Below, one piece after another: positions 14,342-26,460 of a stretch of DNA of 64,000 bases. The position numbers were made by a program, and so were the translations under genes. The stretch is from Tissierellales bacterium (GTDB taxonomy: Bacteria > Bacillota > Clostridia > Tissierellales > Sedimentibacteraceae). The notes below the pieces were generated by a model, which was not told the DNA's origin, did not search any database, and saw nothing but the letters and a program-made list of their open reading frames with translations. The DNA lies in NCBI GenBank assembly GCA_018433765.1, contig JAHDQO010000004.1:124001-188000 (forward strand). Direction: 5' to 3'. The number at the start of each line of letters is the position of its first letter. Within the stretch, counting starts at the first letter, position 1.

Positions 14342-14424
14342 TTTAATTTCAATTAAATTTGACACATTAACTAATTAAATTACAGATAAATGAATAGAGG
14401 TAAAGTTTTTGAGTGGAGGACGAA

Positions 14425-15600
14425 ATGAATAAAATTAACAAAATAATTAGTATGATTTTAATAATCATGCTGTTGACAATCAATATGGCTTTTGCAGATA
14501 TTGATGTAAGTAAAGATGTAAAAGGAGCACTGCTAGGAGATTTAGATTCAGGTGAAATATTATATGAATACAATATAAAAGAAAAAGTAGAACTAGCAAG
14601 TGTTACTAAACTTATGACATATTTAGTAATGAGAGAGGCTATAGAAAATGGTGATGTTTCAGTAGATGATAATGTATTTATAAGTAAAAATGCAGCTGAA
14701 ACTGAAGGCAGTAGTTTTGGATTAGTAGAAGGTGAAACTTTTAAACTTTCTGATTTAATAGAACCTCTCTTAGTTGTTTCGGGAAATGATGTTGCGGTAG
14801 CAATTGCTGAACATGTTGGTGGAACAGAAGATAAATTTATTGAAATGATGTATAAAAAGGCAGAAGAGATAGGAATAACTTCAGCAAGATTTATTTGTCC
14901 AAATGGGCTGCCTATAGATGATGAAGAAACTGACCAAAATTATATGTCTACTGAGGACATCTTTAAGTTAGCTAGATATATATTACAAAAATATCCTGAA
15001 ATAACTGAAATAACATCAAAAAAAGAACTAGTCATTCCTGAAAGAAAATATGAAGGAAAAAGTACTAATTATCAGTTACTTACTGAACTGCCAGGAGTAG
15101 ATGGTCTAAAAACAGGATATACTCACAAAGCTAGATGTTGTTTAGTATCTACTATACCAGTAATAAACAAAGAAGATCAAAATAAAAATTACAGATTGAT
15201 TGCGATTGTAATGGGAGCATATACAAATGATGAAAGAACTGAGAAATCAAAGGCACTTCTTGAATATGGAATGAAAGACTACATAAAAGAAAAAATCGTT
15301 GATAAAACAGTTAAAGTTGAAACTATTACTATAGAAAATGCAAAAGACCAACAAGTAGATGTATATCCAGCAGAAGATTATTATAAACTTATTAAAAATG
15401 GAACAAAAGTAAGAACAGAAATAGAATTTGATACTTCAATTAAAGCTCCTTTAGCAAAAGGAGATTCTGTAGGTAAAATTAATTTATATATAGAAGATGA
15501 AAAAATAGATCAAGTAGATATTGTAGTTAATCAAGATGTACAAAAAGCTAATATATTTGTAAGATTTGTAAGATTTATAAAAGGTATTTTTGGATTATAA
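14425..15600 (+). CDS. dacF: D-alanyl-D-alanine carboxypeptidase, DacF/PBP5 type
   Basis: A 391-residue penicillin-binding protein that trims the terminal D-Ala from peptidoglycan stem peptides. It has a cleavable signal (MNKINKIISMILIIMLLTIN, then MAFA). The peptidase S11 core has SxxK at Ser59-Lys62 (ASVTK), an SGN motif (VVSGNDVAV) and KTG (DGLKTGYTHKA). A PBP5 C-terminal beta domain (DVYPAEDYYKLIKNGTKV) and a basic amphipathic tail (RFVRFIKGIFGL), which probably docks on the membrane, follow. The ATG at 14425 is chosen over a GTG at 14413 that lies inside the GTGGAGGA ribosome site. It has a truncated paralogue at 19484. Confidence 0.92.
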   Translation: MNKINKIISMILIIMLLTINMAFADIDVSKDVKGALLGDLDSGEILYEYNIKEKVELASVTKLMTYLVMREAIENGDVSVDDNVFISKNAAETEGSSFGLVEGETFKLSDLIEPLLVVSGNDVAVAIAEHVGGTEDKFIEMMYKKAEEIGITSARFICPNGLPIDDEETDQNYMSTEDIFKLARYILQKYPEITEITSKKELVIPERKYEGKSTNYQLLTELPGVDGLKTGYTHKARCCLVSTIPVINKEDQNKNYRLIAIVMGAYTNDERTEKSKALLEYGMKDYIKEKIVDKTVKVETITIENAKDQQVDVYPAEDYYKLIKNGTKVRTEIEFDTSIKAPLAKGDSVGKINLYIEDEKIDQVDIVVNQDVQKANIFVRFVRFIKGIFGL

Positions 15601-15691: not shown

Positions 15692-15769
15692 GCACCTGTA
15701 GCTCAGTAGGATAGAGCAGTGCCCTCCTAAGGCATGTTTGCGGGGGTTCGAATCCTCTCAGGTGCACCA
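15692..15769 (+). tRNA. tRNA-Arg (anticodon CCT), CCA encoded
   Basis: A 7-bp acceptor stem (GCACCTG with CAGGTGC), discriminator A and an encoded CCA end are present. The anticodon arm GTGCC-CTCCTAA-GGCAT gives anticodon CCT, reading AGG. The D arm (AGCTCAGTAGGATAGAGCA) and T loop (GGTTCGAATCC) are normal. The 78-base length includes CCA. It is a single gene with its own promoter. Confidence 0.95.
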
Positions 15770-15878: not shown

Positions 15879-16595
15879 TTACTCTGATTGAAGTTTCTTT
15901 AACAAAAAACTACATAGTATAGTTGCTGTTAAGAAGATAACTAGCAAAGGAAGAAAGTTATTAAAATGAAAATTATTATCTATTAACAACTTATATCCCC
16001 AAGTTGCGGGAAATATTTTTCCTGCAAATTCCAAAATTTTAGGAAGTAAATCAATGGAAAACATAATGCCTGACAGCATAATTGATGGTAAAAATACAAG
16101 TTGAGAAATCATGGTGAGTTTTGCTTGGTTTTTTATCAATAGTCCTAAGACACTACCAATGCTTAAAGATACTGCAATAAAGATAACGAGTGAGCCAAAA
16201 TACAATGGAAGATTAGATGGAGGCGTTGCATCAAAAGCTATAGGAGCAATAATGTATATAACAGCACACATAATTAATAGATGGATAAAAGCTGACAAAA
16301 ACATTGAAACTAGACCAAGATACAGCGGTACGCCATTTGATTTATAGACTTTCTTTATATCACTTCCGTATATTTCTACAAGGGAAGGTGGTAAACCTAT
16401 TAGTGCACCCATTGATACACCCATTACAGTCATGGATTGAATGAGCGTATACTTAGATTCTGGCATTATGGATGTGTAAATTCCACCCATAATAATAAAG
16501 AATAAAAGAGGAACTATATAACAAGTAATAAGTAGTGACTTACTTCGTATATCCAATTTCCATTGTAATGCTACTCCATATAAAAATGCATTCAT
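15879..16595 (-). CDS. ABC-2 type exporter permease
   Basis: A 238-residue membrane protein with six hydrophobic segments, the layout of ABC-2 drug and peptide exporter permeases. Examples are the N-terminal LLITCYIVPLLFFIIMGGIY and the later LGLLIKNQAKLTMISQLVFL (residues about 150–170). Its start overlaps the ATPase gene by 4 bases (ATGA-type junction), so the two proteins are co-translated partners. The substrate is unknown. The stop lies about 110 bases beyond the oppositely oriented tRNA-Arg. The G+C and codon choice of this cassette look higher than in its neighbours, a hint of transfer. Confidence 0.85.
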   Translation of the reverse strand: MNAFLYGVALQWKLDIRSKSLLITCYIVPLLFFIIMGGIYTSIMPESKYTLIQSMTVMGVSMGALIGLPPSLVEIYGSDIKKVYKSNGVPLYLGLVSMFLSAFIHLLIMCAVIYIIAPIAFDATPPSNLPLYFGSLVIFIAVSLSIGSVLGLLIKNQAKLTMISQLVFLPSIMLSGIMFSIDLLPKILEFAGKIFPATWGYKLLIDNNFHFNNFLPLLVIFLTATILCSFLLKKLQSE

Positions 16596-17416
16596 TCGTT
16601 ATTCCCCCTTGCTATTTTGATGAAATGCTGTTCAAGTGATCCTCTATCTATTTTTATGTCTAGCACAGTAATGTTTCTTTGCTTAAAATCCTCAAGCAAA
16701 GTCAGCATTGTTTCACCGATATTATGAGATTCAAAATTTTGATTACCTTGACTAGTCTTAATATGAATAGTATAATGTCTACTAATTTTTGCAGTCAATT
16801 CAGCAACAGTATCTAAAAAAACAATCTCTCCATCATTTATGATAGCAATACGATCACACAGACTTTCAACTTCAGCCATATCATGACTGGCTAAGATTAT
16901 TGTCTTTCCTTGTGCTTTCAATTTACGAATTTGGTTATGAAGAGATATTCTGCCTTCAACATCAAGTCCAGCGGTCGGTTCGTCAAGAAAAACAATGTCT
17001 GGATCGCTAATTAAGGCAAGGACTAGATGCAAACGTCGTTTTTGCCCCATAGACATTTCTACATATCTCTTTTTTTCTAATTCTTTAATACCAAGTGCAA
17101 TTAGCATAGATTGATCTATTTTGGCTTTGTTCCATTTTGCAAATAAACGCACAGCTTCCATCGGTTTAATGTGGGCGGGAAGAGAAGATGATTGCAGTTG
17201 AATACCCATTTTTCCATTTACTACGATACTTCCACTATCATACTTTCTTAAATTTTCTATACATTCAAGGGTAGTAGTTTTACCTGCTCCATTTACACCA
17301 AGTAACGCAAAAATTTCACCTTTTATAACATTGAAATTTAACCCTTTTAGCACATCATTATTGCCATAACTTTTCTTTAGATTATTTATTTGTATAGCAT
17401 AGCTCATTTTATTCAC
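16592..17416 (-). CDS. ABC exporter ATP-binding protein
   Basis: A 274-residue ATPase with Walker A GVNGAGKTTT, signature MSMGQKRRLHLVLAL, Walker B DIVFLDEPTAGLD and switch His (LASHDMAEVE). The short Q-loop stretch (MGIQLQSSSLP) is typical of CcmA-type exporters. It pairs with the ABC-2 permease downstream. The ATG overlaps the end of the MerR gene by 4 bases, so merR-ATPase-permease form one coupled operon. Drug or bacteriocin export under MerR control is the likely theme; the substrate is unknown. Confidence 0.92.
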   Translation of the reverse strand: MNKMSYAIQINNLKKSYGNNDVLKGLNFNVIKGEIFALLGVNGAGKTTTLECIENLRKYDSGSIVVNGKMGIQLQSSSLPAHIKPMEAVRLFAKWNKAKIDQSMLIALGIKELEKKRYVEMSMGQKRRLHLVLALISDPDIVFLDEPTAGLDVEGRISLHNQIRKLKAQGKTIILASHDMAEVESLCDRIAIINDGEIVFLDTVAELTAKISRHYTIHIKTSQGNQNFESHNIGETMLTLLEDFKQRNITVLDIKIDRGSLEQHFIKIARGNNE

Positions 17417-18204
17417 TCCTCAAACGGATTATAATTTATTGTTGTGAAATACGCTTCTAAAGCTGGTTCGATAAAAGTATTTGAAATTTCTTGTATATGT
17501 TTCCACTCTTTGCAAGGAATGTTAAAGTTAACAGTCTCCATAAGTTTAGACAACATACTCATATCACCGCCTGTAAACTCCATAACCATATCCCAATATT
17601 CTTTGGCAAAGCTTTGCCCCTTATCACTTTCTGGCGGTACACCTATTTTTTCAAGTTGTATTGCTTTATCGTGCAGACGAGTGATAGTCTCCATCATTAT
17701 TAAGCCACTATTCTTATCAAAATGATTTCGAAAATGATTAAGAGTCTTATCATCAAAATGTTTAATAATCCAGTAGAACTCATTTTTCATCTGCAAATTT
17801 ATGATAATATCGGCATACTTTTTAAAATCTACCGTTTTCATTTGTAACACTTCTTTTCTTAACTTTTCTATTTCTGTTAATGATTTTGATAGGCTTTCTA
17901 TCTTTTTACGAATAGCTGCAGCTTGTTCTGTAAGTACGTTGGCAACATCATCAGGTGTATCTAGAGAAATAAGGTGGTTCTTTATATCGTCCAATGAAAA
18001 ACCTAAAGACTTTAATGATAGAATTTGGTAAAGCTTAATCTTATCTTTGTCAGTATAAAGTCTACGACCACCATCACTTTTTGATGAAGGAGAAAGCAGA
18101 CCTTCTTTGTCATAGTATTGTAAGGTACGGACAGTAGTATCCATCTTTTTAGCAAGTTCTCCCACTGTCATATATCCTTGCGGTATTGCTCTGTTTTTTT
18201 CCAT
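17413..18204 (-). CDS. MerR-family transcriptional regulator
   Basis: The 263-residue regulator has a MerR winged helix at residues about 12–80 (MTVGELAKKMDTTVRTLQYY, then GGRRLYTDKDKIKLYQILSL). A dimerising coiled coil (AAIRKKIESLSKSLTEIEKL) follows, then a roughly 130-residue helical effector domain, larger than metal-sensing MerR proteins and closer to multidrug-sensing ones. It heads the ABC exporter operon and overlaps the ATPase gene by 4 bases. AGGAGGTATTAAT precedes the ATG. Its own promoter has the 19-base spacer that MerR proteins act on, so it probably activates this operon when a ligand binds. Confidence 0.92.
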   Translation of the reverse strand: MEKNRAIPQGYMTVGELAKKMDTTVRTLQYYDKEGLLSPSSKSDGGRRLYTDKDKIKLYQILSLKSLGFSLDDIKNHLISLDTPDDVANVLTEQAAAIRKKIESLSKSLTEIEKLRKEVLQMKTVDFKKYADIIINLQMKNEFYWIIKHFDDKTLNHFRNHFDKNSGLIMMETITRLHDKAIQLEKIGVPPESDKGQSFAKEYWDMVMEFTGGDMSMLSKLMETVNFNIPCKEWKHIQEISNTFIEPALEAYFTTINYNPFEE

Positions 18205-18384: not shown

Positions 18385-18714
18385 ATGCCTTGGTATGTTT
18401 TAGTTATTGTTGTTGTAGTTATTGTAGGATATTTTATATATCTTTATAAAAAGCAAGGTAAAGAAAAGGCGTTGACAAAACTTAGAGAATGTATATATCA
18501 ATTAATGCTATATGCTGAAAGAAATTTTGATGAGGAAAAAGGACGAGAAAAGTTAGAGTGGGTTGTAAATCAGTTAATTGAGTCATTGCCTGATTATGTT
18601 GAGAAATTCATTGATAAAGAAAAAGTTGTTGAAAAGGTAGAAGAATTTGTACAAAATCTTTATAATCAAGCAAAAGATTGGCTTGAGGATGGCGTAATAG
18701 ACCAGACCAGTTAG
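18385..18714 (+). CDS. Small membrane protein, similar to LL-H-type phage holins
   Basis: The 109-residue protein starts with one hydrophobic helix (residues 3–21) and continues as a charged helical domain with GREKLEWVVNQLIESLPDYV and FVQNLYNQAKDWLEDG. That pattern resembles the Holin_LLH family of phage proteins. No endolysin, capsid or integrase gene is nearby, so it is probably a domesticated or host-derived relative rather than part of a prophage. The ribosome site is AGGGGGAATTAGTTAA. It is bounded by its own terminator. Confidence 0.6.
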   Translation: MPWYVLVIVVVVIVGYFIYLYKKQGKEKALTKLRECIYQLMLYAERNFDEEKGREKLEWVVNQLIESLPDYVEKFIDKEKVVEKVEEFVQNLYNQAKDWLEDGVIDQTS

Positions 18715-18870: not shown

Positions 18871-19314
18871 ATGAAAATAAAAATATCTATAATATTAATG
18901 ATAATTTCATTATCTATGTGTACTAGCTGTAATAATATAGAAGAAGAAAAAGAAGTACTAGATTCTGCTATATGGATGGAAATTGTTAATAAAGAATGGC
19001 TTATTTCTGAAGATGTGTTTGCTGGTGTTTATTTTTATGAAAGAGATAATCTTCCTATTTGTGCGTATATGCTTTACGGGAGCGGAGTTCCGATAATAAA
19101 ACTACATGAATCTAAAGTTGAAATTATAGATGACAAAATTGCATTTGAAGTATTAACAGCTAATAAGATGTTAGATAATTATGATATTGAAAAAGCTTAT
19201 TTTACTTACAGTGATGGAAAATTGATTAATGATAGTACTAGCTATGAGCAGTTATCAAGAGGTGATGTTGTTATTGAATTTATAGAGGATTATAAAAAAA
19301 GAAATAATAAATAA
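18871..19314 (+). CDS. Putative lipoprotein of unknown function
   Basis: The 147-residue protein carries a lipoprotein signal with lipobox-like MCTSC at residues 16–20. The mature part of about 125 residues is acidic (EEEKEV; ESKVEIIDDK), with alternating strands and no family I recognise. A ribosome site (TGGAGGATATAT) precedes the ATG. A hairpin with an AAGCTG/CAGCTT stem and T run lies 25 bases after the stop, so it is monocistronic. Surface localisation is inferred from the signal only. Confidence 0.7.
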   Translation: MKIKISIILMIISLSMCTSCNNIEEEKEVLDSAIWMEIVNKEWLISEDVFAGVYFYERDNLPICAYMLYGSGVPIIKLHESKVEIIDDKIAFEVLTANKMLDNYDIEKAYFTYSDGKLINDSTSYEQLSRGDVVIEFIEDYKKRNNK

Positions 19315-19337
19315 AATAAATATAAGAGAAAATAATT

Positions 19338-19370
19338 AAGCTGAGGCTCAAAAGAGCAGCAGCTTTTTTA
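19338..19370 (+). terminator. Terminator after the lipoprotein gene
   Basis: AAGCTG and GCTC on the left pair with GAGC and CAGCTT on the right around AAAA, followed by TTTTTA. Confidence 0.75.
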
Positions 19371-19392
19371 TTATGTTTTAGTAAAAAGCATA

Positions 19393-19421
19393 TTGACATC
19401 AACTGTATCATTATATATAAT
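19393..19421 (+). promoter_or_regulatory. Consensus promoter of the GntR–ABC operon
   Basis: TTGACA (19393–19398), a 17-base spacer and TATAAT (19416–19421) form a perfect consensus promoter. Such a strong promoter is expected to be repressed. Confidence 0.85.
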
Positions 19422-19454
19422 ACAGTTACAGAGTGTATTAATTAATGTAATACA
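19401..19454. promoter_or_regulatory. Two dyad operators, candidate GntR (YtrA-type) sites
   Basis: AACTGTAT–N11–ATACAGTT (19401–19427) spans the spacer and -10 box. TGTATTA–N7–TAATACA (19434–19454) lies just downstream of the start site. Both share the TGTAT/ATACA core. The GntR regulator encoded in the operon is the obvious candidate, giving autorepression. Confidence 0.55.
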
Positions 19455-19483
19455 GTTAATATGTTATGTAATGTGGAGGAAAG

Positions 19484-19996
19484 ATGAGTAAGAAAAGTAA
19501 AATAATAAGTGTAGTCTTAATGATTGTACTAATTTGTACTATGAATGTTGTTTATGCAGATATTAATAATGACTTTTTAGACAATAATATTTCTGCATTA
19601 TTAAATGTATTGAAGGTATCAAATGAAAATGCAGAGGAAAAAATTGTAGATTTAATGCTCGAAAAGATACAAAGCAGTTATATGATAGAGAAAGTTATTG
19701 ATAAAGATGAGAGAATAGATACAATTTTAATTAAGGATGCTAAAGAAGAAGTAAATATATATCCAACTAATGATTTTTATAAATTAATAAAAAATGGTAC
19801 AAAAATAAGAAAAGAAATAGTATATGATTCATCATTAGTGGCTCCTTTATCAAAGGGAGATAAAGTAGGAAAAGTAGTATTGTACATAAAAGACGAAGAG
19901 ATAGGCTATATTGATATTATTGTTGAAAAAGATGTAAAAAAAGCAAATATATTTATAAAATTTAGAAGGCATATTATAAAATTGTTAGGGTTTTAA
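19484..19996 (+). CDS. Secreted protein consisting of a DacF/PBP5 C-terminal domain only
   Basis: The 170-residue protein has a signal peptide ending VVYA, a short linker, and then a region that aligns with the end of the DacF protein encoded at 14425 (NIYPTNDFYKLIKNGTKI here, DVYPAEDYYKLIKNGTKV there; both then have APL-KGD-VGK). The serine peptidase core with SxxK, SGN and KTG is absent. It keeps the terminal basic tail. It therefore cannot be a carboxypeptidase and may act as a binding or regulatory module at the envelope. It is the first gene of the GntR–ABC operon and reads as an intact gene, not a decayed one. Confidence 0.75.
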   Translation: MSKKSKIISVVLMIVLICTMNVVYADINNDFLDNNISALLNVLKVSNENAEEKIVDLMLEKIQSSYMIEKVIDKDERIDTILIKDAKEEVNIYPTNDFYKLIKNGTKIRKEIVYDSSLVAPLSKGDKVGKVVLYIKDEEIGYIDIIVEKDVKKANIFIKFRRHIIKLLGF

Positions 19997-20014
19997 TTAG
20001 AAAGGAGGATGTTT

Positions 20015-20398
20015 ATGATACATATTGATAATAATAGTTCAAAACCTATTTATGAACAAATATATGACCAATTCGTCAAATTAATTATATCCAAAGTATT
20101 AAAACCTGATGAAAAACTACCATCTGTAAGAGAACTTGCATCAATTATTAGAATTAATCCAAATACTATACAAAAAGCTTATAAAATGCTAGAAAATAAT
20201 AATTATATTTATTCTTTGAAGGGAAAAGGTAATTTTGTTAAAGATGATGATGAATTATACAAAATATATTTAAAAAGTATAGAAAACGAATTAAGAAAAT
20301 TAATTAGATCTCTAAAAAAATTAAATATTAAGGATGATGAAATTCTACTAATAATTAATAACATATTGAAAGGAGATGATGTAATTGCTGAAAATTAA
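20015..20398 (+). CDS. GntR-family regulator, YtrA subfamily
   Basis: The 127-residue protein has the GntR winged helix in residues about 5–75 (KPIYEQIYDQFVKLIISKVL; LPSVRELASIIRINPNTIQK; LKGKGNFVKDD), with only a short C-terminal helix for dimerisation, as in the YtrA subfamily. The ATG at 20015 is chosen because AAAGGAGG (20001–20008) would overlap the earlier ATG at 20009. YtrA-type regulators repress adjacent ABC transporter genes and are often released by cell-wall antibiotics. Two dyads at the operon promoter are likely targets. It overlaps the ATPase start by 14 bases. Confidence 0.92.
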   Translation: MIHIDNNSSKPIYEQIYDQFVKLIISKVLKPDEKLPSVRELASIIRINPNTIQKAYKMLENNNYIYSLKGKGNFVKDDDELYKIYLKSIENELRKLIRSLKKLNIKDDEILLIINNILKGDDVIAEN

Positions 20399-21287
20399 TG
20401 ATCTAAGCAAAAAATTTAAAAATTTTGAAGTTCTAAAAAGTATTAATATAAATGCAGAATCATCACAGATTTACGGGTTAATTGGTTCTAATGGATGTGG
20501 TAAAACTACTTTATTGAAACATATTATTCAAGTTTATAAACAAGATACCGGAGAAATTTTTTATAAAGGCACTAAAATTGATGAAATTTCAGATGTAATA
20601 AAAGATTTTTATTATGTTCAAGATGATTTATTTTTTCCATATCAACATACTCTTAATATGCTGTTTAATTATGAGAAACTTTTATATAAAAATATGTCTA
20701 AAGATAAATTTGACAAGTTAGCAAAGTTTTTTAATTTAGATAAGAATAAAAACCTGAATAGATTATCAAAAGGACAAAAAAAGCAAGCCGCTTTTGTTTT
20801 AGCAATTGCTGCTAATCCTAAAGTATTATTATTAGATGAAATAGTTGACGGCTTAGACGCAGTGGTTAGGAGAAAATTTTGGAATGTTTTGATACAAGAT
20901 GTAATTGAAAGGGAAATGACGGTTATTGTATCATCTCATGATTTAAAAGAATTAGATAATATTTGTGATAAAGTAGGTATAATGCATCAAGGAACTATAA
21001 TAAAAGAAGAAAAGCTAGAAGATATAAAAGATAATATTAAACGAGTACAATTTGCAGTAGATTCTGAGTTTAAGCCAATAGAAGGTGAGTCATTTAAAGT
21101 AGTTAAGACCTCAAAAATTGGAAGTGTATACTTTTGTGTTATAAAAGGAAATGTTGATGAATTCAAAAAGGCATTGGAGAATAAATATAAAATATTGGTT
21201 TTTGATGAGCTGCCGATGAACTTAGAAGAAATATTTATTACTGAATTAGGAGGTGTAGGGTATGGTATTGAAGACTTTATTTCCTAA
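20385..21287 (+). CDS. ABC transporter ATP-binding protein (GntR-linked)
   Basis: A 300-residue ATPase with Walker A GSNGCGKTT, signature LSKGQKKQAAFVLAI, Walker B VLLLDEIVDGLD and switch His VSSHDLKELD. The Walker B Glu is followed by IVDGLD instead of the usual PTxGLD, as in several YtrB-type proteins. About 90 residues after the core form an accessory region. Translation starts at a TTG behind AAAGGAGATGATG, inside the gntR 3' end. The C-terminus overlaps the permease by 26 bases, so the operon is tightly coupled. Confidence 0.9.
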   Translation: MLKINDLSKKFKNFEVLKSININAESSQIYGLIGSNGCGKTTLLKHIIQVYKQDTGEIFYKGTKIDEISDVIKDFYYVQDDLFFPYQHTLNMLFNYEKLLYKNMSKDKFDKLAKFFNLDKNKNLNRLSKGQKKQAAFVLAIAANPKVLLLDEIVDGLDAVVRRKFWNVLIQDVIEREMTVIVSSHDLKELDNICDKVGIMHQGTIIKEEKLEDIKDNIKRVQFAVDSEFKPIEGESFKVVKTSKIGSVYFCVIKGNVDEFKKALENKYKILVFDELPMNLEEIFITELGGVGYGIEDFIS

Positions 21288-23052
21288 AAATACAGGTATA
21301 TTAATATATGATAGGTTATATGCTAAGAAAAATTGGCTTTTAATATCTATAGCTATTTTGCTAATAACAGTAGTTTTGTTACCTATACTTATTTTAGGTA
21401 AAATAAGAGAAGAAAACATTATTATTGGAGTAGTAGAAATATTTATTATTGTTTTTATTAACTGTATAATGAGCTTTAATTACTTTCATGATTCGAAGAA
21501 GTTGTCTTATTATGTATCAAAACCTATAACTAATATCCAAAAAGTTAATATAAATATTATTACTAATATTATTTTTACAGTAATATTATTAGGTATATTA
21601 ATGATAATAAGTAATTATGCTGAAATGTATTTTTCCATGTTTGAAATATATAAATTAATCATACCATGGCTATTAGTAGGTATATTAATATCTGCATTAT
21701 CATGTATATTAACTGGAAATTCAATAATAGCAGGTATTTCTACTATAATAAATTTTACATTACCATTTTCTTTTTTAGCTATTATAAGTTATATGTTTAA
21801 AATATTAGAAGATGTTGCTTTAGGCTTTAATGCTGATATTTTGTTAAGTAATTTTGTAGATAATTATTATAGAATAGATTATTTGTATTTTTATAGATAT
21901 ATTGATAATAAAATAAGTATTTCTTATTTTGTAATATTAATTATTTTAATTATATTTGTATACAGTTTGATATACTTTTTATTAAAACGCAGACAAAATG
22001 AACGTACAGGAGATTTTATTGTTTATGATGGTTATAAAAATTTAATATCTGTATTAATAGCTTGTTTAGCGCCAATAGGGTTTTTAACCATAATTAATGA
22101 GGGAGACTTTATAAGTAAGAGTATTTCATTCTTTATACTTTCAGCACTTTCCTATTATATAATTGTTGCTATTTTAGAAAAGTCTTTCAGAGTTTCAAAA
22201 TCGTCTATTAAATTGTTTGCTGTATTCATGATAATATTATTTTTATTTATACAAGTAGCAAATATTGCTACTAACAGTTATGAAAATTATGTGCCAAATA
22301 ATAGTGATGTTGAAAGTGTGTATTTAGGAGATAGTACACATATATATTCTAAATATCTTGAAGAAGGAGTGCATATAAGTAATTTAGATAAGGATTTTAT
22401 GATTAGAGCAGAAGATATTCAAGTTTATACCGAAAAAGAAAACATAGAAAGTGTAATAAACTTACATAAAGAAATCATAGATAATAGATCTTTCTATAAT
22501 TATGGTAGAATTGTTATTGCATATAATCTTAAAAATGGTAAAATGCTAATAAGATATTATGAACTTGATGTAAATTCAGAATCTTATGATGGAAAGAAAG
22601 ATGATGCAATTAAACCTTTAGTTAACAGTGAAGAATTTAAGAAAAAAACATTCAAGTTTATTTACGACGATGAATATGCAAATAATCTTGATATTAATAA
22701 TATAATAATAGAAATAAACAGCAGTGAATCAACTGAAGTTTTTGAAATTTATAAAGATGAAATCGATTTAGATAAATTTAGAAATGCACTGAAAAAAGAT
22801 TATGATGCTTATTTAGCTACTAATAATAATTATTTGGATCTGGCTAGACGTGGACGGTATGTTGAAAGATTTGAACAAAATTATAAACAAAAAGATACAA
22901 TTGATACTTATGAAATTGTTACATACAGTATTGGTATTTATAATCAAAGTATTGATAAGTATAAGAAGAACAGCGAGAACTTAACGATTGATGAACGTTT
23001 TATAAATACAGTTAAATATATAGAAGAATTAATTAAAGTAAAACAACAATAA
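21262..23052 (+). CDS. ABC-2-like permease with large extracytoplasmic domain
   Basis: A 596-residue membrane protein. About ten hydrophobic helices occur in residues 20–350, including pairs near 25–60, 95–150 and 160–190. A hydrophilic region of about 240 residues (from about residue 350) follows and is probably outside the membrane. Permeases of YtrC/D-type GntR-linked operons have similar layouts. It starts within the ATPase gene behind AGGAGGTGTAGGG. Its role is presumably export or sensing of envelope-active compounds, inferred only from its neighbours. A strong terminator ends the operon. Confidence 0.75.
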   Translation: MVLKTLFPKNTGILIYDRLYAKKNWLLISIAILLITVVLLPILILGKIREENIIIGVVEIFIIVFINCIMSFNYFHDSKKLSYYVSKPITNIQKVNINIITNIIFTVILLGILMIISNYAEMYFSMFEIYKLIIPWLLVGILISALSCILTGNSIIAGISTIINFTLPFSFLAIISYMFKILEDVALGFNADILLSNFVDNYYRIDYLYFYRYIDNKISISYFVILIILIIFVYSLIYFLLKRRQNERTGDFIVYDGYKNLISVLIACLAPIGFLTIINEGDFISKSISFFILSALSYYIIVAILEKSFRVSKSSIKLFAVFMIILFLFIQVANIATNSYENYVPNNSDVESVYLGDSTHIYSKYLEEGVHISNLDKDFMIRAEDIQVYTEKENIESVINLHKEIIDNRSFYNYGRIVIAYNLKNGKMLIRYYELDVNSESYDGKKDDAIKPLVNSEEFKKKTFKFIYDDEYANNLDINNIIIEINSSESTEVFEIYKDEIDLDKFRNALKKDYDAYLATNNNYLDLARRGRYVERFEQNYKQKDTIDTYEIVTYSIGIYNQSIDKYKKNSENLTIDERFINTVKYIEELIKVKQQ

Positions 23053-23057
23053 AACAA

Positions 23058-23097
23058 ATAGAACATTTCCTAAAAATAGTAGGAATGTTCTATTTTT
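23058..23097 (+). terminator. Bidirectional terminator between the ABC operon and birA
   Basis: AATAGAACATTTCCTA pairs with TAGGAATGTTCTATT around a short A-rich loop with T6 after it. It overlaps the last codons of birA on the other strand. Confidence 0.9.
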
Positions 23098-24076
23098 TAT
23101 TATAAAAATTTTTCAATGATATTTCCCCGGAAATCAAGTTTTCAGTTTCTCCATTCTCATATTCAACTACTAGCTCGCCTTCATCATTTATATCTACAGC
23201 TTTTACACTTATTGTTTTGTTATTTTTTATTATATTTATTTTTTTTCCTAAAACAATTGATTTTTTTCTGCATATATCTAAAGATTTATTTGTATTTCCG
23301 TCAATAATAAATTGTTTATATAGTGTTTCGAAATGGTTCAATACTTTAGCAGCTATTTTTTTTCTCATAAATTCTTTTCCTAATGCTGATTTAATAGATG
23401 CAGCTGTATTTTTAATACTATCAGGGAATTCATTTTCATCTATATTTACATTTATACCTATTCCTAATACTGCATAATTTATTTTATTTAACTCACAACT
23501 CATTTCGGTAAGTATACCGCATACTTTCTTATTGTTAATAATTATATCATTAGGCCATTTGATATAAACTTCAATTTCCATTTCAGATATAGCTAAACAT
23601 ACTGCAGCGGCACTTATTTGTGTTATTTTTGCAACATGAATTGGATTAATATTGGGTCTAAGTATAATTGACATCCAGATACCTTTATACTTAGGAGCAA
23701 TCCAAATTCTTCCAAGTCTTCCTCTTCCTAAAGTTTGCTCTTCACTTATTATAACAGTACCTTCTTTTTCACCAGTTTCAGCAAGTTCTTTAGCTTTAAT
23801 ATTAGTAGAATTTATTGTATCAAAATGAATTATTTTATTACCAATAAAATCAGTGTTTAGGTATTCTTTTATTTCTTCATAAGTTAATATATCGGGACTA
23901 TTTATTATCTTATAGCCTTTTCTTGAAATAGATTCTATATCATAGCCTTCTTCTTTTAAAGTATTAATATACTTCCAAACAGCAGCTCTGCTAACTCCTA
24001 TTTCTTTACTAATTTTTTCACCTGATAAAAAATTATTCTTATTTTCTTTTAAAAGGTTAAGTACTTTATTTTTCAC
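23090..24076 (-). CDS. birA: Bifunctional biotin–protein ligase / biotin operon repressor
   Basis: BirA biotinylates carboxylase subunits and, when biotinyl-AMP accumulates, represses biotin genes. Residues about 1–55 form the HTH (FLSGEKISKEIGVSRAAVWK). The ligase domain has GRGRLGRIWIAP and KWPNDIIINNKKVCG, and the C-terminal SH3-like domain ends the protein. The GTG at 24076 gives 328 residues beginning at the HTH. It sits about 12 bases after GAAAGG, slightly far; a TTG at 24115 would add 13 unconserved residues. Two BirA operators lie between it and the divergent bioY gene. Confidence 0.95.
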   Translation of the reverse strand: MKNKVLNLLKENKNNFLSGEKISKEIGVSRAAVWKYINTLKEEGYDIESISRKGYKIINSPDILTYEEIKEYLNTDFIGNKIIHFDTINSTNIKAKELAETGEKEGTVIISEEQTLGRGRLGRIWIAPKYKGIWMSIILRPNINPIHVAKITQISAAAVCLAISEMEIEVYIKWPNDIIINNKKVCGILTEMSCELNKINYAVLGIGINVNIDENEFPDSIKNTAASIKSALGKEFMRKKIAAKVLNHFETLYKQFIIDGNTNKSLDICRKKSIVLGKKINIIKNNKTISVKAVDINDEGELVVEYENGETENLISGEISLKNFYNKK

Positions 24077-24305: not shown

Positions 24306-24869
24306 ATGAAAATTACTACAAAGAGTATGATATTGACTGCCTTTTTTGCTGGATTAACTGCAGTTGGATCGGTATTGCTTAAGATTCCAGTTGGACCTGT
24401 TCCTATTACTTTACAGGTGTTTTTTACTGCTTTATCAGGAATTATTTTAGGTTCGAAACTTGGTGCCTTATCTCAGATTGTTTATGTTGCAATGGGACTA
24501 ATTGGTCTTCCTGTATTTGCAGGAGGTGTAGGAGGGGTGTCTCATATTTTTAGCCCTACATTTGGTTATTTATTAGGGTTTATAATTGGAGCGTATATTA
24601 TTGGAATGATATCAGAAAAACAAAAGAGTAATAGCTTTTTAAATTTGTTTACAGCTACTCTTGTTGGATTATTTGCAATATATGCTGTAGGTTTTCCTTA
24701 TCTTTATATAGTTTTAACAAGAGTAAATAATTTGGATGTAACTTTTTATAGCGTTTTAAAAAGCGGTGTTTTAATATTTATTCCGGGTGATTTAGTTAAA
24801 TGTTTATTAGCTGCAGTTTTAGGTGTTCAAGTTATTCCTATCTTAAAAAAAGAAATGTTAAGAAACTAA
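24306..24869 (+). CDS. bioY: Biotin transporter BioY (first copy)
   Basis: The 187-residue substrate-binding membrane subunit of the ECF biotin transporter. It has six hydrophobic helices and family motifs such as LKIPVGPVPITLQVFFTALS, GAYIIGMISE and a conserved GLIGLPVFAGG loop. It starts behind AGAAAGGAATT, 21 bases after BirA operator 2. Biotin or a precursor is imported with the shared EcfA/A'/T module, which is not encoded here, or by BioY alone. A close paralogue follows bioB. Confidence 0.95.
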   Translation: MKITTKSMILTAFFAGLTAVGSVLLKIPVGPVPITLQVFFTALSGIILGSKLGALSQIVYVAMGLIGLPVFAGGVGGVSHIFSPTFGYLLGFIIGAYIIGMISEKQKSNSFLNLFTATLVGLFAIYAVGFPYLYIVLTRVNNLDVTFYSVLKSGVLIFIPGDLVKCLLAAVLGVQVIPILKKEMLRN

Positions 24870-25896: not shown

Positions 25897-26460
25897 ATGA
25901 GAATTACTACAAGAAATATGATATTAACAGCTTTCTTTGCTGGGTTGACTGCAATAGGTGCAGTGTTAATAGAGATACCTATTGGGCCTGCGCCTATTAC
26001 TTTACAAGTACTTTTTACTACTTTAGCTGGTGTAGTATTAGGTGCAAAATTAGGAGCATTATCTCAAATAGTTTATGTTTTTATGGGTCTAGTTGGGCTT
26101 CCTGTTTTTTCAGGAGGAAGTGGAGGACCAGCATATATATTTCACCCAACTTTTGGTTATATGATGGGATTTATACTTAGTGCATACGTTATTGGAAAAA
26201 TATGCGAAAAACAAAAACATCCAAAGTTTATAAATTTATTTTTAGCATCTTTAGCTGGTTTAGCTGTTATATATGCTATTGGATTTCCTTATTTATATTT
26301 TGTACTAGCAAAAATAAATAATTTAGATGTTACTTTTTATGGAGTTTTGAAAAGTAGTGTTTTAGTATTTATTCCTTGGGATATATTAAAATGTATATTA
26401 ACAGCATTATTAGGAGTTAGAATTATACCTTTATTAAGAAAAGAAAATTTAGGTATTTAA
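25897..26460 (+). CDS. bioY: Biotin transporter BioY (second copy)
   Basis: A 187-residue paralogue of the first BioY, collinear over the whole length (ITTRNMILTAFFAGLTAIGA, LIEIPIGPAPITLQVLFTTL, GLVGLPVFSGGSGG). Small differences lie around the second helix and the binding loop (GGSGGPAYIFHP versus GGVGGVSHIFSP). It follows bioB by 33 bases behind GAAGGGGGAATC and ends the operon before a terminator. Having two BioY proteins beside a lone bioB suggests one may prefer biotin and the other dethiobiotin, which is an inference. Confidence 0.95.
   Translation: MRITTRNMILTAFFAGLTAIGAVLIEIPIGPAPITLQVLFTTLAGVVLGAKLGALSQIVYVFMGLVGLPVFSGGSGGPAYIFHPTFGYMMGFILSAYVIGKICEKQKHPKFINLFLASLAGLAVIYAIGFPYLYFVLAKINNLDVTFYGVLKSSVLVFIPWDILKCILTALLGVRIIPLLRKENLGI

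Follow-up and report, generated by a model that had tools for sequence, protein, structure and literature searches.

The window, meaning the whole stretch of 64,000 nucleotides analysed here from a Tissierellales bacterium (contig JAHDQO010000004.1 of GCA_018433765.1), carries serS, a gene for DacF, a tRNA-Arg gene, a MerR-ABC group, two small genes, a promoter, a short gene and gntR, in this order (Table 1). The MerR-ABC group, which consists of a MerR regulator, an ABC ATPase and a permease, lies on the minus strand at 15879-18204, just past the tRNA-Arg(CCT) gene. The two small genes are located directly upstream of the operon described below. One of them (18385-18714) encodes a 109-aa protein with a sub-threshold match to a phage holin (LLH) family, at 22 bits against a cut-off of 34.75, and the other (18871-19314) encodes a likely lipoprotein of 147 aa, for which no family scored over the cut-off.

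Table 1. Features at the locus, with positions in the window and the basis of each assignment.
Feature	Position	Strand	Basis and remarks
Full-length DacF (S11 + PBP5_C), parent-type gene	14413..15600	+	ORF, Pfam, motifs; ATG 14425 is an alternative start
tRNA-Arg(CCT)	15692..15769	+	Follows dacF in the window and in relatives
Consensus sigma-A promoter, TTGACA-17-TATAAT	19393..19421	+	Hexamers 12/12; block also in relatives
Operator 1 (predicted), ACTGTA-N13-TACAGT	19402..19426	+	Overlaps the spacer and the -10
Operator 2 (predicted), AGTGTA-N13-TACAGT	19432..19456	+	Pattern match
Domain-II-only DacF paralogue (short gene; predicted)	19484..19996	+	ORF, Pfam, model: signal peptide ~1-25, linker helix 48-65, PBP5_C 69-153, C-terminal helix 156-168
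YtrA-type GntR regulator	20015..20398	+	Pfam GntR 8e-15; 55-64% identity to regulators of the syntenic operon in relatives
ABC transporter ATPase	20385..21287	+	Pfam ABC_tran 5.8e-23
Probable ABC permease	21262..23052	+	Position after the ATPase; no Pfam family over the cut-off

The short gene has 170 codons with no internal stop, and its RBS-like sequence, gtggagg, lies just 5' of position 19480. In the Pfam search, the PBP5_C domain (PF07943) of its protein scored 48.7 bits with an E-value of 8.6e-13 (cut-off 21.2), and Peptidase_S11 was not found. The patterns S..K, S.N, SGN, Y.N and K[ST]G were sought in the short protein, with zero occurrences. For DacF, Peptidase_S11 and PBP5_C both score, and the motifs SVTK, SGN and KTG are present. 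The dacF reading frame begins with GTG at 14413, and translation more likely starts from the ATG at 14425, which lies 3' of the ribosome-binding site. DacF is the closest relative of the short protein (44% identity over 144 aa, 3e-40). The two genes are also alike as DNA, in the 3' part (75% across 249 nt, 3e-41) and in the part covering the RBS and signal peptide (70% across 96 nt, 7e-5). On the basis of this protein and DNA likeness, the short gene is assigned as a copy of dacF that lacks the catalytic domain. The source genome has four PBP5_C genes, and only the short gene has an open frame of less than 380 residues. An earlier note on this DNA had described an intact gene for a secreted DacF relative, which keeps the signal peptide and the C-terminal domain and lacks SxxK, SGN and KTG, and this description agrees with our results. 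As judged from its sequence, the product is a predicted secreted DacF relative devoid of a catalytic domain.

An AlphaFold model of the short protein was built with four sequences, namely the two proteins of the window and those of two distant loci. The mean pLDDT was 71.8; the beta-sandwich was confident, with ten-residue blocks at 82-94 across residues 71-150, and the confidence was low in the first 43 residues. In the comparison by VIA-align, residues 43-155 matched PBP5 of E. coli and P. aeruginosa with Z of ~13, over a region made up of the final helix of domain I, the enzyme domain, and the whole of domain II. The best matches among the solved structures were PBP5/PBP6, with 4k91 first (Z 13.5, 113 residues aligned, rmsd 3.6) and 1sdn second (Z 13.2, 89 aligned, rmsd 1.4), and Foldseek agreed with VIA-align. 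The structure comparison that had been proposed for this protein thus gave a match of the model to PBP5 domain II, which serves as a consistency check rather than an independent discovery because DacF was among the aligned sequences. One PDB title among the fold matches is YxkC-DacA (9a4z), and a literature search for YxkC as a partner of DacA found nothing. The predicted helix 156-168 occupies the position of the C-terminal anchor helix of PBP5, and E. coli PBP5 is reported to be anchored by its C-terminal helix (PMC2909392). The helical moment of the tail was 0.39 for the short protein (permutation 0.18, weak to moderate by itself) and 0.49 for DacF (permutation 0.04).

The consensus promoter claimed in the earlier note was found upstream of the short gene, and two predicted operators overlap or follow it. 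YtrA of B. subtilis is reported to bind AGTGTA-13 bp-TACACT (PMC8060467); the operators of the window have exactly this spacing, with one variable base per half-site. The exact pattern ASTGTA-N13-TACAST occurs at three sites in the 4.19-Mb genome, two of which lie on the promoter of the short gene, 30 bp apart, and the reversed control pattern has one occurrence. When one mismatch was allowed, at least two matches appeared in the window by chance in 16 of 100 shuffles. For this reason, the weight was put on the exact matches, their tandem placement at the promoter and their conservation in relatives. The third exact site (L111:1501-1525, G000:C38:3363-3387) lies within a longer inverted repeat, which is located upstream of genes or between them and is perhaps a terminator.

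No terminator-like site was found in 19200-23200, from the promoter to the end of the transporter genes. The stop codon of the short gene is followed by gntR after 18 nt, and the gntR and ABC frames overlap each other. For gntR, the ATG at 20015 appears more likely as the start than position 20009 of the ORF list, since AAAGGAGG stands directly before 20009 and the proteins of relatives begin with MIxIDN. Only one match to the regulator was obtained in its own genome at E 1e-15 or better. The operon contains one ATPase and one permease, and the next gene is a birA-like gene on the minus strand. Beside the latter, two closely similar frames (24306-24869 and 25897-26460), which we take to be BioY-like (biotin transporter), surround a bioB-like gene. 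The short gene is predicted to lead an operon that also encodes a YtrA-type regulator and an ABC transporter. The earlier note had placed it at the head of a GntR–ABC operon, and the two YtrA-type operators make the tie to the regulator stronger than was claimed there. The note also spoke of an ABC pump, and of YtrA operons that respond to cell-wall antibiotics in other firmicutes; the ABC genes are present, but "pump" is an assumption, and a clear role of the B. subtilis Ytr system in antibiotic survival is unconfirmed in the available text of two sources (PMC8060467, PMC12772383).

The locus was compared across 32 genomes of families f1 and f6, namely those whose regulator is closest to that of the window (E 4e-39 or better, the genome of the window included). 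Of their operons, 31 of 32 have the promoter-operator block, counting the window, and it lies upstream of either gntR itself or a gene in the slot before gntR. The sole operon without the block by the pattern used (G010) has one operator-like repeat. The slot holds a PBP5_C gene in 1 of the 32 (the window), an unrelated gene for ~180 aa in 16, and no gene in 15. A PBP5_C leader was found in none of the 40 further loci that were read, two of which (G018 and G032) are within the 32. Three leader frames of at least 60 residues were present in those 40 loci, one being the 180-residue gene and the other two being frames of 453-456 residues of another kind. The ~180-residue slot protein was compared with Pfam for three members, none of which had a family over the cut-off, and with NCBIfam for two, again with no family. 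A sequence search of the PDB with tested members of this protein (L048:14035-14577 and 15 other related operons) gave no relative. By eye, the protein has a conserved His together with a Cys-Ser-Ser stretch, and it could, as a guess, be papain-like.

The order in relatives of the family is serS, dacF, tRNA-Arg, a variable stretch, and gntR with the ABC genes. As in the window, the tRNA-Arg gene comes after dacF in 13 of the 14 loci of relatives that were scanned, and it is absent from the stretch in the remaining one, L070 (family f6). Many of the relatives have other ABC genes in the variable stretch. In f1 relatives, the full-length dacF is a gene of its own upstream of the operon; it is the orthologue of the DacF gene of the window, and nothing like dacF was found between the operator and gntR in the relatives examined. 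The short gene is an extra copy. A full-length dacF at the place of the short gene, which would have marked the latter as a recent deletion, was not found in the relatives examined, all of other genera.

In an order-wide search of 249 genomes, four open frames of less than 300 residues besides that of the window were among the matches listed. Three of them were rejected as a second stand-alone PBP5_C protein: the frame of G013 has a run of unknown bases, that of G011 is broken at an unknown base, and that of G022 lies at a contig start. The fourth, a 248-aa open frame with a PBP5_C match in G127, was left aside in the count. A class-wide draw of 391 genomes gave five open frames of less than 270 residues among the best-scoring matches listed, and these were two broken frames, two contig ends and one N-terminally truncated gene, all of which keep the KTG stretch. 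The earlier note had suggested a search for such proteins beside GntR–ABC genes. Among the matches listed for the 249 genomes of the order (G127 aside) and the best-scoring ones listed for the 391 of the class, no second true stand-alone PBP5_C protein was found, and the leader gene of the window appears to be rare. On plasmids and phages (4 and 6 records, respectively), all matches were partial, at less than 60% identity. The two distant loci came from a scan of genome contigs; L032 is a full-length dacF-like gene, and L031 matched only from DacF residue 120 on. A literature search for PBP5 proteins without the catalytic domain found no paper among those listed.

We tentatively favor the reading that the short protein is a stress-induced, non-catalytic and membrane-tethered partner or competitor of DacF. 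In this reading, a YtrA-type operon would have acquired, between its operator-promoter and gntR, a dacF copy from which almost the whole catalytic domain was lost. Of this, the domain content, the gene order and the operators are evident from the sequence itself. In its favor are the PBP5_C domain without S11, the modelled domain II, the two operators at the promoter, the block in 31 of 32 operons, the 13 of 17 conserved PBP5_C columns that the short protein keeps (see below), and a branch that is only ~1.6-1.9 times as long as that of DacF. By homology, GntR would repress the short gene, itself and the transporter together, and stress on the lipid II cycle would lift this repression, as for YtrA of B. 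subtilis. The short protein would be exported and cut after VYA, and its C-terminal helix would tether it, like DacF and PBP5, to the outside of the membrane. Since the short protein keeps all of DacF outside the enzyme, our guess is that it competes or pairs with DacF at the membrane, through mixed dimers or a common docking partner. It might then lower or relocate the trimming of D-Ala during wall stress, as a built-in dominant-negative partner of DacF. In E. coli, PBP5 and PBP6a are reported to self-associate in vivo, and midcell bulges are reported for cells whose PBP5 is catalytically dead (S44G; PMC5596342). The Ytr system of B. subtilis is reported to be tied to wall homeostasis and to stimulate wall synthesis (PMC12772383), and its overexpression leads to a thicker wall (PMC8060467). 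A brake on D-Ala trimming at the time of stress fits this picture of Ytr, and the interaction with DacF is placed first for this reason, with modest confidence. Against docking on DacF, E. coli PBP5 is reported to localise by its substrate, and the authors argue against protein-protein docking (PMC2909392). Further points against the reading are the weak amphipathicity of the short tail by itself and the presence of the gene in a single genome. The more specific proposal, an inducible, membrane-tethered pseudoenzyme brake on D-Ala trimming under the same repressor as a Ytr-type transporter, with the slot as a lineage-specific effector site, is rather doubtful.

A role as a partner of the permease is about as likely as the role as a partner of DacF. 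The short protein would be an extracytoplasmic, membrane-tethered partner of the ABC transporter, contacting the soluble C-terminal part of the permease and handing over or sensing a wall precursor or peptide, comparable to the role proposed for YtrF of B. subtilis; this is possible rather than probable. The short gene and the transporter share an operon and a promoter with no terminator between them, and no further same-strand gene follows the single ATPase and the single permease before the birA-like gene. The permease has ~9 hydrophobic segments up to residue ~341, followed by a soluble part of ~255 residues that could be contacted. However, the empty slot in 15 and the unrelated gene in 16 of the 32 operons mean that the transporter needs no PBP5_C partner, and domain II has no known ligand site.

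The short gene might also be a decaying copy of dacF, transcribed by chance, and this we regard as unlikely. It is present in one genome only and has lost most of the enzyme. In the C-terminal ~110 residues, the identity is 51.8% between the short protein and its own DacF, and 50.5% between the latter and DacF of G026, another genus of the family. As the distance from the short protein to its own DacF is about that from this DacF to the next genus, the short gene is assigned as an old paralogue and not as a recent deletion. More than one order of splits is compatible with the tree: a clade of the short protein and its own DacF is not rejected (p-AU 0.37), and the best tree groups the DacF proteins of the family to the exclusion of the short protein, with weak support (65/31). 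The amino-acid branch lengths of the short protein and DacF are 0.62 and 0.38, or 0.73 and 0.38 in a second tree (ratio ~1.6-1.9). Of the columns with a conservation of 80% or more across 29 DacF rows, the short protein keeps 13 of 17 in PBP5_C; before PBP5_C, it keeps 3 of 18, an unconserved part that agrees with decay. The two genes differ at 35%, 20% and 44% of codon positions 1, 2 and 3, respectively, and dN and dS were 0.36 and 0.86 by NG86 and 0.32 and 0.45 by LWL85 (the ML dS was unusable); these values judge selection from the divergence of paralogues, with the short gene from a single genome. Against decay, 170 codons have stayed open with a signal peptide, an RBS and a complete domain despite ~48% divergence of the protein, and the 13 of 17 conserved PBP5_C columns also speak against it. 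When neutral decay was simulated in 1000 runs each, the frame was left without a stop in 0.8% (0.3 proposed substitutions/site) and 0.1% (0.5 proposed substitutions/site). The pattern, from one sequence, is in keeping with a domain that is maintained and a linker that is free to vary.

It is quite improbable that the short protein is a wall-binding module, whose domain II would attach to peptidoglycan or lipid II and act as a damage sensor of the operon. The signal peptide makes a location on the outer face likely, but the available text of the literature mentioned no wall binding by PBP5 domain II, and YtrA-type regulators are cytoplasmic, with no signal path visible. The peptidoglycan binding and the sensor role suggested in the earlier note are unsupported so far. 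Even less probable is an action in cis, in which the short gene is a leader frame for spacing or translational coupling of gntR and its protein is incidental. Different genes do occupy the slot before the regulator, and B. subtilis is reported to have the leader frame ytrG there (PMC8060467, PMC12772383), but the short gene encodes a conserved, folded and secreted domain, and about half of the related operons have no leader. A decoy for beta-lactams, as the decoy of the earlier note may be understood, was rejected as unlikely because the acylation site is missing entirely.

Neither the role of domain II in PBP5-type carboxypeptidases nor the purpose of Ytr-type operons is well understood, and a natural domain-II-only protein under a Ytr-type switch is a ready-made test. 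If the short protein alters the activity of DacF or binds the permease, domain II would gain a job and the transporter would be tied to wall trimming. Neighbouring lineages have unrelated genes in the slot between the YtrA-type operator and the regulator gene. By gene content, the operon of the window represents a new variant of the YtrA type, whose leader gene is a predicted non-catalytic DacF domain.

The short protein has the signal peptide, the last helix before domain II, the beta-sandwich of domain II and a predicted C-terminal helix in common with D-Ala-D-Ala carboxypeptidases of the DacF/PBP5 type. It differs from them by the absence of the catalytic S11 domain and its three motifs, and by its position under a YtrA-type operator. 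As to membership in the S11 carboxypeptidases, it has the PBP5_C domain II and does not have S11 with SxxK/SxN/KTG. Among the exporters of phenol-soluble modulins (PmtR-PmtABCD), PmtR was the best NCBIfam model of similar length for the regulator of the window (72 bits, cut-off 200), and PmtA was near for the ATPase (114 bits, cut-off 350). The identity with PmtR/PmtA was rejected, as these scores are far below the equivalog cut-offs and the make-up of the operon differs. The operon has the marks of the YtrA type, that is, a small GntR regulator followed by ABC genes and, as a sequence pattern, an inverted repeat at the promoter. Like B. subtilis ytrGABCDEF, it combines a GntR gene and downstream ABC genes with an AGTGTA-N13-TACACT-type operator and an extra gene before the regulator, whereas it has one ATPase, one permease and no YtrF-like gene. 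The leader genes differ in kind: YtrG of B. subtilis is reported to be a small transmembrane protein (PMC12772383), and the leader of the window encodes a predicted secreted DacF domain.
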